From positions 1,612,001 to 1,676,000 of the forward strand of contig NZ_CP091508.1 in assembly GCF_022870865.1 (NCBI RefSeq): 64,000 nt of DNA, in the 5' to 3' direction. Of the stretch, positions 1,556 through 61,710 are shown piece after piece. Origin of the DNA: Uruburuella testudinis (GTDB lineage Bacteria; Pseudomonadota; Gammaproteobacteria; Burkholderiales; Neisseriaceae). Within the stretch, counting starts at the first letter, position 1, and every line of letters starts with the position of its first letter. Below the pieces are notes generated by a model. It was given only the letters and a program-made list of their open reading frames with translations, made no database searches and was not told the origin of the DNA. The translations under genes were made by a program, and so were the position numbers.

Positions 1556-1913
1556 TGGAGTGTCCCTCACTTTGCGCTTTATAAATAAAGCTGTTCTCAA
1601 AACCTTTTTGGTTAAGCTGTAATATAAAGTAGCCGCGTGTCAAAAAATATGCGCCTAAAGGGCTTTGCAGAAAATCATTGGAATAGGGTTCAGACGGCCT
1701 GATAGAGTAGGGGGCGTAATGCTTTCGGATTAGGGTATTCTGACAATTCGATTGATGGCAGCTTTTGGCCGCTGAAAACACTTCCACACACACGTTAAAA
1801 GCATTAAGATGCCGTACAGCATTTGCTCATACTGCATCGGCAGGCAGGCTTGCAGACAGGTATGACAGGCCGTCTGAACAATCAAAGGCCGTCTGAAAAA
1901 GGAAAATCAACAC
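1556..1913. other. narG/mop divergent intergenic region
   Basis: This 358-base stretch separates two divergent genes and must hold both promoters. It contains a scrambled left end of repeat family A (from 1731), and two direct uptake sequences at about 1867 and 1888 just before mop. I see no convincing FNR palindrome or NarL heptamer pair. A TTGACA on the minus strand near 1635 could be a -35 box, but no well-spaced -10 follows. Confidence 0.5.
1731..1812 (+). repeat. Family A repeat, partial copy
   Basis: Begins TAGGGTATTCTGACAATTCGA, close to the left end of the full copies at 3708 and 57469, then continues with a diverged body (GCTGAAAACAC) and loses similarity after about 1812. No right terminus is visible, so this is a truncated or decayed copy. 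Confidence 0.6.
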
Positions 1914-2836: not shown

Positions 2837-2908
2837 ACGGGTATCTTGCGGGTGTTTTTAACGCAGCAGATGTGCTTTTAGCATAAAAAAGATGATGATA
2901 TATGACGC
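2837..2908 (+). repeat. Family A repeat, right-half fragment
   Basis: ATCTTGCGGGTGTTTTTAAC followed by GCAGCAGATGTGCTTTTAGC and AAAAAAGATGATGATATATGA matches the right half of the copy at 57469-57634 almost base for base. Both termini are missing. Confidence 0.75.
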
Positions 2909-2921
2909 ATTAAAACACCCA

Positions 2922-3670: not shown

Positions 3671-3686
3671 GGCGGTTGGTTCTCCG

Positions 3687-3735
3687 ATAAATGAATGGTC
3701 AGGACACCCTAGGGTGTCCGGACAATTCGATTTAC
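3687..3735. repeat. Head-to-head termini of two family A repeats
   Basis: An ATAAATGAATGGTC right end and a GACAATTCGATTTAC left end meet at the perfect 18-base palindrome GGACACCCTAGGGTGTCC (3702-3719). The left partner has no body: only its terminus is left, 17 bases before the thiE start on the minus strand. Confidence 0.75.
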
Positions 3736-3874
3736 GGGTGTATTTTGCCCCTGAAAACGCATCTGCTGCGTTAAAAAGCCTCGCAAGATGTCCAATCTTG
3801 CTGCGTTTTTTGCCTGGCATCTGCATTTTCAGGAACAAAAATCCCCTCATAAACGAATTGTCAGGACACCCTAG
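3708..3874 (+). repeat. Family A repeat, full copy
   Basis: About 167 bases from CCTAGGGTGTCCGGACAATTCG to CGAATTGTCAGGACACCCTAG: the two ends are inverted copies. The inner halves also form an imperfect inverted repeat (TGAAAACGCATCTGC against the complement of GCATCTGCATTTTCA). The last bases CTAG overlap the stop codon of narL. No coding potential of its own; its minus strand stays open in frame with thiE. Confidence 0.85.
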
Positions 3875-14636: not shown

Positions 14637-14759
14637 GGCCGTCTGAAACATTGTCTCTGTATTTTCGGGCAAAAATCCGCTAGGCAAAATATGGACAGCC
14701 TACTTTGTTTTGTAAAATTATGCTAAACTAAACCATCAATTGTTTTCAGGAATGTGACC

Positions 14760-17461: not shown

Positions 17462-17540
17462 CTAGTGTGTTCTGATCACTCGATTTACAAGTGCTTTTTG
17501 CCTCTGAAAATGCATCTGTTTTTTTCCGAATGAGTATCAT
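17462..17540 (+). repeat. Family A repeat, left-half fragment
   Basis: CTAGTGTGTTCTGATCACTCG then ATTTACAAGTGCTTTTTGCC and CTGAAAATGCATCTG match the left half of the full copies. The right half is missing and is replaced by the palindromic terminator. Confidence 0.7.
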
Positions 17541-21669: not shown

Positions 21670-21833
21670 GGGCATCCTAACCATTCGATTTATGAGTGCC
21701 TTTGGCCGCAAAAAACGCATCTGCCACATCAAAAGTTTTGTAAGATGCCCAATGCTGCTGCGTTTTTTTGCCTGACATCTGCATTTTCAGGAACAAAAAT
21801 CTCTCCATAAACGAATGGTCAGAACACCCTAGA
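21670..21833 (+). repeat. Family A repeat, full copy
   Basis: Runs from GCATCCTAACCATTCGATTTA to AACGAATGGTCAGAACACCC plus TAG. The body carries the same ordered blocks as the copy at 3708 (AACGCATCTGC, GTAAGATGCCCAAT, GCTGCGTTTTTTTGCCTG, CATCTGCATTTTCAGGAAC). It fills most of the 313-base gap between the lipoprotein gene and trxB; the rest is a loose pair of uptake sequences around 21571 and 21641. Confidence 0.8.
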
Positions 21834-23604: not shown

Positions 23605-23760
23605 TAGGGTGTTCCCGATCTCCGCTTACATTTTACATCATTAGAAAATGCAAACTGGCTCAGTGGAAAATGCAGTCAGTGGAAAATGCAGTAAGATTGG
23701 ATATCTTGCAGTTACTTGGCGTTAGGGTATCCTGACCCATTCAGAATGATTCAGAATAAT
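23605..23760 (+). repeat. Family A repeat, decayed copy with internal tandem duplication
   Basis: Left end TAGGGTGTTCCCGATC and right end TTAGGGTATCCTGACCCATT flank a body with AAGATTGGATATCTTGCAG. The 16-base unit CAGTGGAAAATGCAGT is present twice in tandem at 23661-23692 with no mismatch. The right end is about 10-25 bases from the glnB stop. Confidence 0.6.
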
Positions 23761-29628: not shown

Positions 29629-29670
29629 TAGGGTGTCCTGACCATTCAGAATTATTCAGATTTCGGGCTT
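29629..29670 (+). repeat. Family A repeat, left terminus only
   Basis: CTTAGGGTGTCCTGACCATTCAG followed by ATTATTCAGATT: only the terminal 25 or so bases match. It is close to the 3' end of the pRiA4b-like gene. Confidence 0.55.
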
Positions 29671-32540: not shown

Positions 32541-32697
32541 TCTAGGTATCTTAACGTCGTTTACAAGGGGCTTTTACCCATGAAAATACAGAATGAACAA
32601 AAATCCATAAAAATTCAATATGTTGCGAGATTTTTTGAATACAGAAAATGCGTTTTCAGGGAAAATACCCGTAAGCCGAATAGTCAGAATGCGCTAG
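32541..32697 (+). repeat. Family A repeat, diverged full-length copy
   Basis: TCTAGGTATCTTAACGTCG at the left and GAATAGTCAGAATGCGCTAG at the right, with recognisable inner blocks (AAAATCCATAAA, GTTGCGAGATTTTTTG, AAAATGCGTTTTCAGGG). It ends seven bases from the argH stop. Confidence 0.65.
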
Positions 32698-36150: not shown

Positions 36151-36318
36151 CCTAGGGTTTCCTGATGTGTCGTTTATGAGGGAATTTTTGTTCCTGGAAA
36201 TGCAGATGCAAGGCAAAAAACGCAGCCAGATTGGACATCTTGCAAGGCTTTTTAATGCAGCAGATGCGTTTTCAGGGGCAAAAAACGCCCTTAAAACGAA
36301 TGTTCAGGATACCCTAGG
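36151..36318 (+). repeat. Family A repeat, full copy
   Basis: CCTAGGGTTTCCTGATGTGTCG to GAATGTTCAGGATACCCTAGG, 168 bases, in inverted orientation relative to the copy at 3708 (its inner blocks read TTTTTGTTCCTGGAAATGCAG first). An uptake sequence abuts the left end. An open frame through it encodes the same peptide, HLARLFNAADAFSGAK, as the false extension of thiE, which shows how well the element is kept. Confidence 0.85.
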
Positions 36319-44763: not shown

Positions 44764-45214
44764 GTGCGTCTCTAAAATGGTTTCAGACGGCCTACATATC
44801 GGCAGGCGGCCAAGAAAAAGTTAAGGGCTTGTAAAAAGCAATCTCCTTTTTACAAGCTGCCCAGGGCTTTTTGACTATGCAGAATTATTCAGATTGTTTG
44901 TGATGCAAATATAGATGCAGGGTGAAATGCAGCAGATGTACTTGTCAGCAAACAAAAAGATAATGATATGTGAATAATCAAAAGGCCTGCGGCGGTTTAT
45001 ACCCAATCGGGCTGTCTGTAGGCAGAAACGGATATTCGACAAAGCTGTTTGCAGCATCTTTTCTTGTACTGCTACAAAAAATCATCCGACTGCACCGGCT
45101 TGCCGTCTTATCCGTTTATATTTAATCGGCGTTATGTTATGCAATTGTTGTTTTATTGCCGTAATTACCCGCTATTGCCGAACAGATGTTTTTAAAATGC
45201 CAACCGTTTGGTTT
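44764..45214. other. Empty bamB position between yfgM and der
   Basis: 451 non-coding bases. There is one uptake sequence next to der, a decayed family A-like stretch (44866-44985), and AT-rich DNA to 45214. No frame, on either strand, shows WD40/PQQ-type repeats or a lipobox, so no bamB remnant is recognisable. BamB is known to be lacking in Neisseria, and this gap is where it sits in other proteobacteria. Confidence 0.65.
44866..44985 (+). repeat. Family A repeat, strongly decayed
   Basis: AGGGCTTTTTGACTATGCAGAA ... GCAAATATAGATGCAGGGTG ... AAATGCAGCAGATGTACTTGT ... AAAAAGATAATGATATGTGAA follows the order of blocks of the copy at 57469 (AAAAAAGATGATGATATATGA at its end), with many changes. 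Confidence 0.5.
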
Positions 45215-49366: not shown

Positions 49367-50130
49367 TACAAGCGTCCTGTTGTAATTGATTGCAATTCTT
49401 CAGAGTAAGGAAAGTTTGCCCGCAATTGGGCTTCGTATTCATAAGCCGCCTGCATATTGCCGAGCGATCGCGACAAGCGCCACCCCAACAGCAAATCATC
49501 TGCTGTCAGCACATCGATTTTACTTTGATACTGACGGAAGTAATAATCTGCATCATTTAAATGGCCTGCCAGCATTTTTGTTCGTGCCAGCTCTTTTAAT
49601 GCCGGAAAAAAGCCCGGATCGGCTGCTAAAGAACGCTCCAAATAAGCTTCCGATAAAGCATATTGCCCCATTTTAGCGCTGCATATGCCTTTATTCAGAT
49701 AAGCTACTTGTGGATTCGGATAAGTAGGATCGGCCAAAGCCGTATCAAAATAAGCAATCGACTCGGCAGGCTGGTTTACCTGACTGCACAAAAACCAGCC
49801 GTAATTATTATTGGTTTCTGCGCTGGCAGGGTTAATTGCCAAGGCCTTCAGAAAGCTTTCCCGCGCTTTATCGGGCACTTTCAGATATTGGTAAATTTGG
49901 GCGCGCACCAGCCATGCATTTTCATTTTTGCTGTTGGAAACCAATGCTTCTTCAATGCTGGTGGTTGCCTGACGGTAATCTTTTGCCCGCATATATTCAA
50001 CGGCCAGTTGGGTTTTGATATTGGACACCTCAATTGCGCGCTCACGTGTGCTGGGTTTTGAACCACCGGTGCCTGCGCAGGCGCTGACCAGCAATGCCAG
50101 CAACAAAGGCTGCCAAATTGTTAACTTCAT
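49366..50130 (-). CDS. pilW: Type IV pilus biogenesis/stability lipoprotein PilW
   Basis: Outer-membrane lipoprotein of 254 residues (PilF in Pseudomonas) needed for stable multimers of the PilQ secretin and for functional pili, hence natural transformation in this uptake-sequence-rich genome. Signal peptide with lipobox VSAC (Cys near 18), then about six TPR units (QLAVEYMRAKDYRQATTSI, NNYGWFLCSQVNQPAESI, PALKELARTKMLAGHLNDAD). Starts four bases after rlmN. Firm family call by both sequence and gene order. Confidence 0.92.
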   Translation of the reverse strand: MKLTIWQPLLLALLVSACAGTGGSKPSTRERAIEVSNIKTQLAVEYMRAKDYRQATTSIEEALVSNSKNENAWLVRAQIYQYLKVPDKARESFLKALAINPASAETNNNYGWFLCSQVNQPAESIAYFDTALADPTYPNPQVAYLNKGICSAKMGQYALSEAYLERSLAADPGFFPALKELARTKMLAGHLNDADYYFRQYQSKIDVLTADDLLLGWRLSRSLGNMQAAYEYEAQLRANFPYSEELQSITTGRL

Positions 50131-57421: not shown

Positions 57422-57470
57422 AAGGCCGTCTGAAAGGGTTTGGCAAATGCACCAACTTTTCAGACGGCCT
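57422..57470 (+). terminator. Uptake-sequence hairpin after aroA
   Basis: AAGGCCGTCTGAAAG and CTTTTCAGACGGCCT frame a 20-base loop, seven bases after the aroA stop. Its right arm is fused to the left end of a family A repeat (GGCCTAGGGTG). Confidence 0.75.
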
Positions 57471-57634
57471 AGGGTGTCCTGATGTGTCGTTTATGAGGGG
57501 ATTTTTGTTCCTGAAAATGCAGATGCAAGGCAAAAAACGCAGCAAGATTGGACATCTTGCGAGGCTTTTTAACGCAGCAGATGTGCTTTTATCGCAAAAA
57601 AGATGATGATATATGAATTGTCAGGACAGCCTAA
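57469..57634 (+). repeat. Family A repeat, full copy
   Basis: CTAGGGTGTCCTGATGTGTCG to ATGAATTGTCAGGACAGCCTA, 166 bases, same inner order as the copy at 36151 up to GCGAGGCTTTTTAACGCAGC; the last third differs (TTTTATCGCAAAAAAGATGA) and equals the fragment at 2837. So there are at least two body subtypes. Nothing more than one uptake sequence (near 57684) is seen from 57635 to 57790. Confidence 0.85.
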
Positions 57635-58558: not shown

Positions 58559-58688
58559 CTGTGCTTTTCAGCGATAATCCGATTGACGGGTGCTTTGTGC
58601 TTCTGAAAACGTATCTGCTGCAATCTGCATGTTTAGAAACAAAAATCTGCGGGTCGATACACTCATTCAATCATCAGAAAACCCTAAG
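58559..58688 (+). repeat. Family A repeat, decayed copy
   Basis: CTGTGCTTTTCAGCGATAATCC at the left, then ATTGACGGGTGCTTTGTGCTTC, TGAAAACGTATCTGCTGC, GCATGTTTAGAAACAAAAAT, ending ATCAGAAAACCCTAAGG. Block order as in the copy at 3708 but with a deletion in the middle. It begins about 6 bases after the nuclease-family stop. Confidence 0.6.
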
Positions 58689-60486: not shown

Positions 60487-61521
60487 ATGATTACCCCCCA
60501 ACAAGCCCTTAGCCGGCTGATTGACAATAATGAGCTTTTTTACGACGAAATGAGCGACCTGATGCGCCAAATTATGCGCGGCGAAGTGGCACCGGAGCTG
60601 ATTGCCGCCATTCTTACCGGTTTGCGCATCAAAGTGGAGAGTGTGTCTGAAATTGCCGCGGCCGCTGCGGTTATGCGTGAGTTTGCCGCAGCCGTGCCGG
60701 TGCAAAACACACGCAATCTCGTCGACATCGTGGGCACCGGTGGTGATGGCGCCCATACCTTCAATATTTCCAGCACCGCTATGTTTGTTGCCGCAGCCGC
60801 CGGTGCCAAAGTAGCCAAACACGGCGGACGCTCGGTTTCTTCTTCCAGCGGTGCCGCCGACATCATGGAACAAATGGGCGCTTCACTCTCGCTCTCCCCC
60901 CAACAAGTGGGCACCTGCATCGATCAAACCGGCATAGGCTTTATGTTTGCCCCCAACCACCACAGCAGCATGCGCCATGTGGCGCCGGTACGCAAAGCGC
61001 TCGGCGTCCGCACCATCTTCAATATTCTCGGCCCGTTGACCAACCCCGCTGCCGCGCCCAATCAGGTGTTGGGTGTATTTCATATTGATTTGGTCGGTAT
61101 TTTGTCGCGCGTATTGCAGCAATTGGGTTCGGAGCATGTTTTGGTGGTGCACGGCAGTGATGGCCTGGATGAAATCACCATCACCGGCAACAGCCGTGTC
61201 GCCGAATTGAAAAACGGCAAAATCGGTGAGTTCGACATCCACCCCGAGCATTTCGGCATTCCTGTTTACGCTAATCTCGACGATATCAAAGTATCCGACA
61301 GCCGCGAATCGCTCATGAAAATGCAAAGTGTGCTCAACGGCGAACCGGGAGCCGCCCGCGATATCGTCTTGCTGAATGCCGCCGCCACAATTTATGCCGG
61401 CAACGTTACCGACTCGCTGGAAGACGGCGTAGCTGCGGCTCGCGAAGCGATCGACTCCGGTAAAGCCAAAGCTAAACAACAGGAATTTATCACCGCCAGC
61501 CAACAATTATCGGCCGCATAA
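60487..61521 (+). CDS. trpD: Anthranilate phosphoribosyltransferase
   Basis: Second committed step of tryptophan synthesis: PRPP plus anthranilate to phosphoribosyl-anthranilate. The 344-residue protein has the PRPP loop [14 protein letters not shown] near 80, [41 protein letters not shown] and [14 protein letters not shown], all typical. AAGGGAACCATC is the ribosome site. Ends with TAA at which a composite A/B repeat begins. Confidence 0.96.
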
Positions 61522-61710
61522 GGTGCCCTGACCATTCGATTTATACCCCATTCACAAAAGTAAGCTAACAAGGCGGTACAAGTAGTGGGGGCTGGTTGGC
61601 TTGGCGCTTCAGCACCTTAGCGAAACCAGTCCTCTTCGAGTTCAGGCCAGCCAACGCCGTTAGATGATTTTTGCGAATGGGTATAAATCGAATGGCCAAG
61701 GCATCCTAAA
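61522..61710. repeat. Family A termini enclosing a B copy (composite)
   Basis: Left GGTGCCCTGACCATTCGATTTA and right TAAATCGAATGGCCAAGGC + ATCCTA are inverted A ends, but all of the A body is replaced by a B copy at 61542-61686. The A part begins directly after the trpD stop. Confidence 0.8.
61542..61686. repeat. Family B repeat, long form, inside an A element
   Basis: TATACCCCATTCACAAAAG to TTTTTGCGAATGGGTATAA, 145 bases; the interior has TAAGCTAACAAGGCGG, GGCTTGGCGCTTCAGCACC, TTAGCGAAACCAGTCCTCTT and GCCAACGCCGTTAGATG. Confidence 0.85.

Follow-up and report, generated by a model that had tools for sequence, protein, structure and literature searches.

A dispersed 166-bp hairpin repeat with the ends of an IS5-family element and a core that recurs under other ends

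Results

The repeat in the window and in the genome

The window, which is the whole 64,000-nucleotide stretch analyzed here, corresponds to bases 1612001-1676000 of the single-contig, 2.95-Mb genome G000. At 3709-3874 it holds the reference copy of a dispersed repeat, which runs for 166 bp from CTAG to CTAG and not from position 3708 as given in the first-pass annotation. At 3871-3873 a 218-aa ORF ends on a TAG that comes from the element's CTAG. The core of the reference copy contains the internal-loop blocks CTGCGTT and GCCTGG (elsewhere commonly GCCTTG) and the apical stem GCAAGAT/ATCTTGC. A profile built from 76 elements was used to search the window; its training set took in three window copies and four from G002, a relative of the same genus. 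The best match in the reversed window (E 0.19) served as the control. The search returned four near-complete copies (E ≤ 7e-37), a further five that are decayed or incomplete (E ≤ 3e-7), and four weak remnants (Table 1). Twelve of the 13 places listed at first pass scored clearly above the control; the remaining one, at 61522, roughly equaled it. Two weak matches near control level, at 14652-14701 (E 0.09) and 49628-49692 (E 0.11), were absent from that list. At 61519-61700, the MITE-like ends CCATTCGATTTATACCC and GGGTATAAATCGAATGG flank a piece of another dispersed repeat in place of the usual core.

Table 1. Copies and remnants of the repeat in the window, and examples of a second dispersed repeat at other loci
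Feature	Position	Strand	Remarks
Reference full-length MITE	3709-3874	+	body 3712-3871; TA duplications 3710-3711 and 3872-3873; E ≤ 7e-37, in training set
Conserved core, model R1	3751-3834	+	covarying stems
End fragment of second copy	3684-3712	+	CTAG common with 3709-3874, tandem arrangement
Full-length copy, one side TGTGTC end type	36152-36317	-	profile match, E ≤ 7e-37, in training set
Full-length copy, mosaic arms	57469-57634 (profile match to 57633)	-	profile match, E ≤ 7e-37, in training set
Near-complete copy	21670-21832	+	profile match, E ≤ 7e-37
Decayed copy	32553-32697	-	profile match, E ≤ 3e-7
Partial copy, about half	2839-2920	-	profile match, E ≤ 3e-7
Partial, decayed copy	1731-1812	+	profile match, E ≤ 3e-7
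Partial copy, left end	17462-17518	+	profile match, E ≤ 3e-7
Internally deleted copy	58573-58686	+	pieces 58573-58621 (E 2e-7) and 58623-58686 (E 0.0055)
Weak decayed remnant	44863-44934	-	E 2e-4
Weak remnant	23666-23744	-	core piece 23666-23709 (E 0.0012); end 23723-23744 (E 3.9 alone)
End remnant	29629-29663	-	E 0.0036
End-like remnant	61519-61544	+	E 0.17, about equal to best control
Second dispersed repeat	L209:18143-18335		
Second dispersed repeat	L216:7297-7449		
Second dispersed repeat	L239:5846-5949		

The end CTAGGGTGTCCTGA occurred 16 times in the window at ≤3 mismatches, with 1.8 matches expected. In the whole of G000 the extended end pattern had 505 matches at ≤3 mismatches and the TGTGTC end had 146, counts that overlap because the first tolerates three mismatches; both reversed patterns had 0. 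The inverted ends noticed at first pass are common to the copies. Forty evenly spaced 20-kb stretches (800 kb) of G000 contained 125 copies, 84 of them near-full, which made up 2.08% of the DNA sampled and extrapolate to ∼460 copies and 2.1% of the DNA for the genome. Short, without a transposase gene and with terminal inverted repeats common to its copies, the repeat has the form of a MITE.

Of 147 distinct near-full copies assembled from G000, some of them from loci retrieved because they matched the reference copy best, 85 were exactly 166 bp long. Three copies of 111 bp were present in the first copy set. The copies have two arm types on each side and two inner end types (CNATTC and TGTGTC). 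The arms were combined as L1R1 in 92 copies, L2R2 in 22, L2R1 in 17 and L1R2 in 16 (Fisher odds ratio 7.4, p 2e-6), L1R1 being over-represented because some loci were fetched by similarity to an L1R1 reference. The copies are mosaics with an excess of cognate arm pairs. Mean fold energies were -66/-77 and -64/-69 kcal/mol for the cognate arm pairs vs -55/-49 and -51/-57 kcal/mol for the non-cognate ones. The reference copy was predicted to fold end to end into a single hairpin on both strands (-77.8 and -86.8 kcal/mol; z -11 and -12).

With a simple end test, the end of a neighboring element was found directly to the left of 26 and directly to the right of 17 of the 147 copies, one CTAG being common to both elements. 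Seventy of 73 near-full sampled copies lay between ORF proxies and three inside one, a count in which a gene-breaking insertion would also appear as lying between. Stop-side distances fell within -6 to 10 bp in 12 of 79 cases, and relative to co-directional neighbor genes 20 elements were oriented with and 28 against. At 12 junctions of the 147 copies the uptake sequence GCCGTCTGAA directly followed the element's CTAG.

Target site

The left tetramer of the 147 copies was CTAG in 86 and TTAG in 32, and the right one was CTAG in 101 and CTAA in 10. The outer bases were changed one-sidedly (T..G in 36 copies, C..A in 16, T..A in one) and the inner G/C was kept, which argues for the duplication of TA at an NTAN target rather than for a 4-bp duplication. 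When 145 joined flanks were compared with the fetched part of G000, a spanning match was obtained for 41 of them, mostly to tandem copies or with gaps. Four flanks (L019, L044, L221:6500 and L234:18351) were joined across one TA and aligned gap-free near the junction, over 109-156 bp at 83-95%; L087, L017, L218 and L230:593 are among several others in which gaps lie at the junction or close to it. The four gap-free cases sit in dispersed repeats whose uninterrupted paralogues carry a single TA. These empty sites are paralogous and not orthologous. When the 145 joined flanks were aligned to stretches of G002, every match was either paralogous or imperfect; L044 and L221:6500 matched uninterrupted copies there, apart from small gaps farther from the junction. 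In 19 relatives, no usable orthologous empty site was obtained for the right flank of 3709-3874, because the intergenic DNA is too diverged. A second dispersed repeat of ∼150 bp (..GGCGCTTCAGCGCCTTAGCGAAACCAG..), present in many copies in G000 and G002, also receives insertions of the MITE (examples in Table 1).

The IS5-family partner

A 128-bp relic in G000 (L075:1377-1504) carries the ends of the MITE, and its translation resembles the end of an IS5-type transposase. Among 60 genomes including G000, the relic DNA matched only G000 and G002, and the same two carry these MITE ends. G002 carries an 877-bp IS (L097:732-1608) whose 26-bp inverted ends are perfect and whose uninterrupted frame spans 282 codons from stop to stop, or 250 from the first ATG. 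Its protein matched NF033580 (251 bits, cut-off 110; E 1e-74) and PF01609, so that an IS5-family DDE transposase match lies between inverted ends. The IS adjoins a core-bearing MITE (L097:561-735) with which it has one CTAG in common. The CTAG target had suggested an IS630-type parentage, but the L075 relic and the transposase profiles point to IS5.

The terminal bases of the IS and the G002 MITE were identical at 19/19 positions of one end and 18/19 of the other. Beyond these ∼19 bases no match exceeded 10 bp, so the MITE did not arise from this IS by internal deletion. The end variant agrees between IS and MITE within each species, being of the GGCTTCC type in G002 and of the GGTGTCC type in G000, where it is decayed in the IS; G002 MITEs also carry GGTTTCC and GGCATCC. 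One sizeable IS copy of 876 bp with a broken frame was found in G000 in addition to the relic. An intact partner IS was not found in G000, and the MITE family may therefore be immobile there now. A transposase gene with matching ends, the first-pass annotation's proposed check, exists with an uninterrupted frame in G002 and in decayed form in G000. Judged from these sequences, the autonomous partner is likely an IS5-family element.

Other end types and their IS matches

Further IS/MITE end matches were found with other end types. IS5-family elements of ∼818 bp with (C)TAGGGTCTGTCGACATTCAAG or a near variant at their ends occur in G021, G015 and G032 (D type), and MITEs of G025, G029 and G031 have closely related ends; the IS of G021 and the MITE of G025, which come from different genomes, were identical at 20/21 bases of one end. 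In G163 both partners occur in the same genome. The IS is 1254 bp long with a 410-codon frame matching NF033581 (242 bits, cut-off 140), is flanked on both sides by ataa and ends in GGGCACCTCTATTTAGTG; the core-bearing MITE starts GGGCACCTCTATTTATTC.

Among 30 IS5-type loci from 13 Neisseria genomes, the D type alone matched a MITE end, and among 16 loci from 13 distant genomes (including G294, which is without a reported core) a two-sided transposase end match was found in G163 alone. One-sided end matches also lay near transposase genes, for instance at L314 of G363 (2 mismatches), L316 of G120 and L311 of G374. At the loci examined, no IS with matching ends was found for most end types, namely B, C and the types present in G007, G010, G030 and G063. 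An IS5_3-type element of G010 (L161, L170, L177) occurs in ∼22 near-identical copies with the ends CGTGTTCATAGTCT, which do not match the core-bearing elements of that genome.

Spread of the core

The inner part of the element matched 15 of the 18 other genomes of the genus, with 76-91% identity for the best core match per genome. Recognizable ends in 24 of 30 such loci gave a length of 156-167 bp; the other six gave different values or none that was convincing. The end types within the genus differ (TAGGGAGTGTAGTCAGAAAG, TAGGGTCTGTTGACCATTC, TAGGGTCTGTCGATATTCAA, CAGGGCGAACTGACTATTC, CAGGGGTTGCGGAGATTCAG, CAGGGCGATCCGACCATTC and AGAACCTGCATTCGC). For G035, G021 and G015 the core was 89-91% identical, a figure subject to best-of-many bias, vs 80-81% for the gene beside the reference copy.

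With the covariance model R1, the ∼84-bp core was found in 36 of the 83 Neisseriaceae genomes, belonging to 6 of 12 genera, and in 36 of the 274 genomes sampled from the class (32 of 222 genera), G000 being included in both sets. This recurrence across the class with other ends had not been foreseen at first pass. The numbers of R1 matches per genome are lower bounds, as at most 54 candidates (Neisseriaceae) or 16 (class sample) were scored. Five Neisseriaceae genomes (G064, G067, G074, G078 and G013) had between 29 and at least 54 core matches each. At the distant loci, inverted ends scoring at least 11 at an element length of 153-170 were found in 10 of 18 cases vs 0 of 108 displaced controls; eight loci scored below 11, and a 19th was too near the contig end to examine. 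The distant end types included GGAACCTCTGATCAATTC and GGGCACCTCTATTTATTC. Four loci (L297, L301, L303 and L304) carry another apical stem (e.g. CATTTAC..GTAAACTC) atop the same lower stems and internal loop. Plasmids (three queries) and E. coli genomes (one query) gave no match.

Structure and covariation of the core

The core was analyzed in two alignments. A1, the source of model R1, comprised 30 of 48 core rows picked for diversity. A2 comprised all 46 model matches, including six antisense, secondary or decayed rows that were left out of the counts of loop blocks and mismatches, and was aligned to the model and hence leans towards it. In A1, 94.7% of the cells paired vs 83.3% after shuffling and 35-57% after sliding, and the covariation score was 0.318 vs 0.115. 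Double changes were present at 9 of 20 pairs (shuffled mean 6.8, reached by 23/500); the further pair types, 21 vs 19.6 in shuffled alignments and reached by 158/500, were not outstanding. In A2, 93.1% vs 71.3% of the cells paired, and double changes were present at 18 of 20 pairs vs 11.3.

Between the covarying stems lie unpaired conserved blocks, typically a CTGCGTT/GCCTTG internal loop. Exact CTGCGTT was present in 19/30 rows of A1 and 10/19 distant rows, the relaxed form C[TGC]G[CT]GTT in 25/30 and 17/19, and GCCTTG in 20/30 and 15/19, a conservation that is partly ascertainment because the model scores those letters. On the modelled strand, G.T and A.C mismatches numbered 7 v 18 in A1, 19 v 34 in A2 and 6 v 19 in the distant rows. 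As G.T was not commoner than A.C, RNA of the modelled strand is not favored; the opposite strand or folded DNA is possible. The same comparison for full-length G000 copies was discarded, since their structure had been predicted with G-U allowed. A structured RNA-level repeat had been the other possibility named at first pass: the structured nature is borne out by the full-length fold of either strand and the compensated core pairs, and the mismatch counts do not favor RNA of the modelled strand. Rfam gave 0 matches in the window at the gathering score, the best at the element reaching 17.6 bits (E 0.44), and a published description of the core was not found in the literature searched, which lay mostly outside subscription journals.

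Discussion

We are highly confident that the repeat is a MITE of an IS5-family element. Its inverted ends, the TA duplication, the single TA at uninterrupted paralogous sites and the IS5-family element with the same ends all uphold the suggestion of a MITE made at first pass. With the IS5 elements of the NF033580 group it has in common the terminal 19 bp, identical or nearly so, and the CTAG at the ends; it differs from them in being without a transposase gene and in an interior that is not derived from the IS. In the mechanism that we propose from sequence comparison, an IS5-family transposase would move the MITE in trans, recognizing its ∼19-bp terminal inverted repeats and inserting it at NTAN, mostly CTAG and also TTAG or CTAA, with duplication of TA. 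The interior, which does not stem from that IS, is a full-length imperfect palindrome around a ∼84-bp core from a class-wide superfamily. This superfamily keeps its core and approximate length and varies its ends by lineage, each presumably adapted to the local IS5-family transposase. The core may be retained through an internal-loop motif recognized on the folded single strand, either as a DNA hairpin or as a transcript.

Bacterial MITEs are usually regarded as remnants of a single IS, with which they have their ends in common. Here the interior spreads wider than the ends, through half of the Neisseriaceae genera searched and about one in seven genera of the class sample. The elements are palindromes of similar length where their ends are recognizable, and in each of the three cases with an IS match the IS5-family element concerned is a different one. 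The recurrence of the core in other bacteria with different ends suggests that the center matters in its own right. We put forward, as a tentative proposal that is somewhat less likely than not but is our preferred account of the conservation, that the elements may be a class-wide superfamily of ∼160-bp hairpin parasites of IS5-family transposases, in which the ends are swapped to suit the transposases available and a structured core with a conserved internal loop is kept. This core would be a functional nucleic-acid module, recognized as a folded single strand, and the real unit of inheritance. The function of a MITE interior becomes a testable question, the covariance model can be used for annotating such intergenic repeats, and the natural IS/MITE end pairs are offered for the study of co-evolution between transposases and ends.

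A possible but somewhat doubtful alternative is that horizontal spread and gene conversion between copies alone account for the presence of the core in several lineages, and that the core is functionless and owes its compensated pairs to the correction of palindromes at replication. The mosaic arms, which indicate that copies recombine, are in line with this, as are the mismatch counts, the many transversion types among the double changes (36/69 in A1, 94/166 in A2) and the incomplete, partly ascertained conservation of the loop. However, pure correction would pair the loop blocks, which in the distant rows are mismatched yet recognizable, and the unrelated end types imply that the core outlives its ends.

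It appears unlikely that the copies are kept by an RNA function at gene ends, whether as terminators active in both directions or as stems for RNase III-type processing, and that their mobility is incidental. The full-length hairpin with its extreme z values, the terminator-like matches that the apical stem and its T runs give on either strand, the position of most copies between ORF proxies and of some close to stops, and the excess of cognate arm pairs would all agree with such a role. Against it stand the lack of a clear orientation bias and the fate of the T runs, which in D-type and distant relatives become TTTCC and the like with pairing kept; moreover, amplification to hundreds of copies would be impossible by RNA function alone. 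A terminator was not retained as the main explanation because the T runs are not conserved.

Movement by a Y1 (RAYT) transposase that acts on hairpins, as for elements of the REP/REPIN type, would also fit a hairpin with conserved unpaired bases, but this is very improbable, as the ends match IS5-family elements in three cases and REPs are given as 20-40 bp in the available part of their description (PMC3733652). A variant of the Correia element (NEMIS/CREE), which would be of the same genus, similar size and palindromic with TA termini, can be dismissed at the level of the ends, the Correia ends having four matches at ≤3 mismatches vs 2.2 expected and 0 at the copies, as the first-pass annotation had held.

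The accessible portions of the Correia literature describe a mostly intergenic Neisseria MITE with TA termini and long stem-loop transcripts (PMC2229807, PMC5039591), with 26-bp inverted repeats, its own core region and lengths of 69-151 bp (PMC5039591), for which a role of the IS1106 (IS5 family) transposase has been suggested (PMC3898611). The MITE of the window resembles it in its occurrence in Neisseria, mostly intergenic position, TA termini and stem-loop. The two are set apart by their ends: the 26-bp inverted ends TATAGTGGATTAA..., taken from the excerpted PMC5039591, are unrelated to those of the MITE and are not what the element carries. The dRS3/NIME pattern ATTCCC(N8)GGGAAT, as printed in the available text of PMC3898611, had 0 matches at ≤1 mismatch, again as had been stated at first pass.

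Among enterobacterial repeats, ERIC (RU-1, 127 bp) and YPAL (RU-2, ∼168 bp) appear in the consulted part of PMC2759123 as small mobile palindromic sequences, and TA termini and duplications are described there for such repeats. As small mobile palindromes, both resemble the MITE. YPAL, in the section available from PMC2229807, is without TA termini and duplicates 3-26 bp, and its sequence as printed, inspected by eye, differs from the MITE in being without the TGCGTT core. QMITE2 of Coxiella, a gammaproteobacterial MITE of 150-190 bp, is distinguished by its description in the available extract of PMC5896051, with direct repeats of 7-11 nt and a GTAG REP inside.
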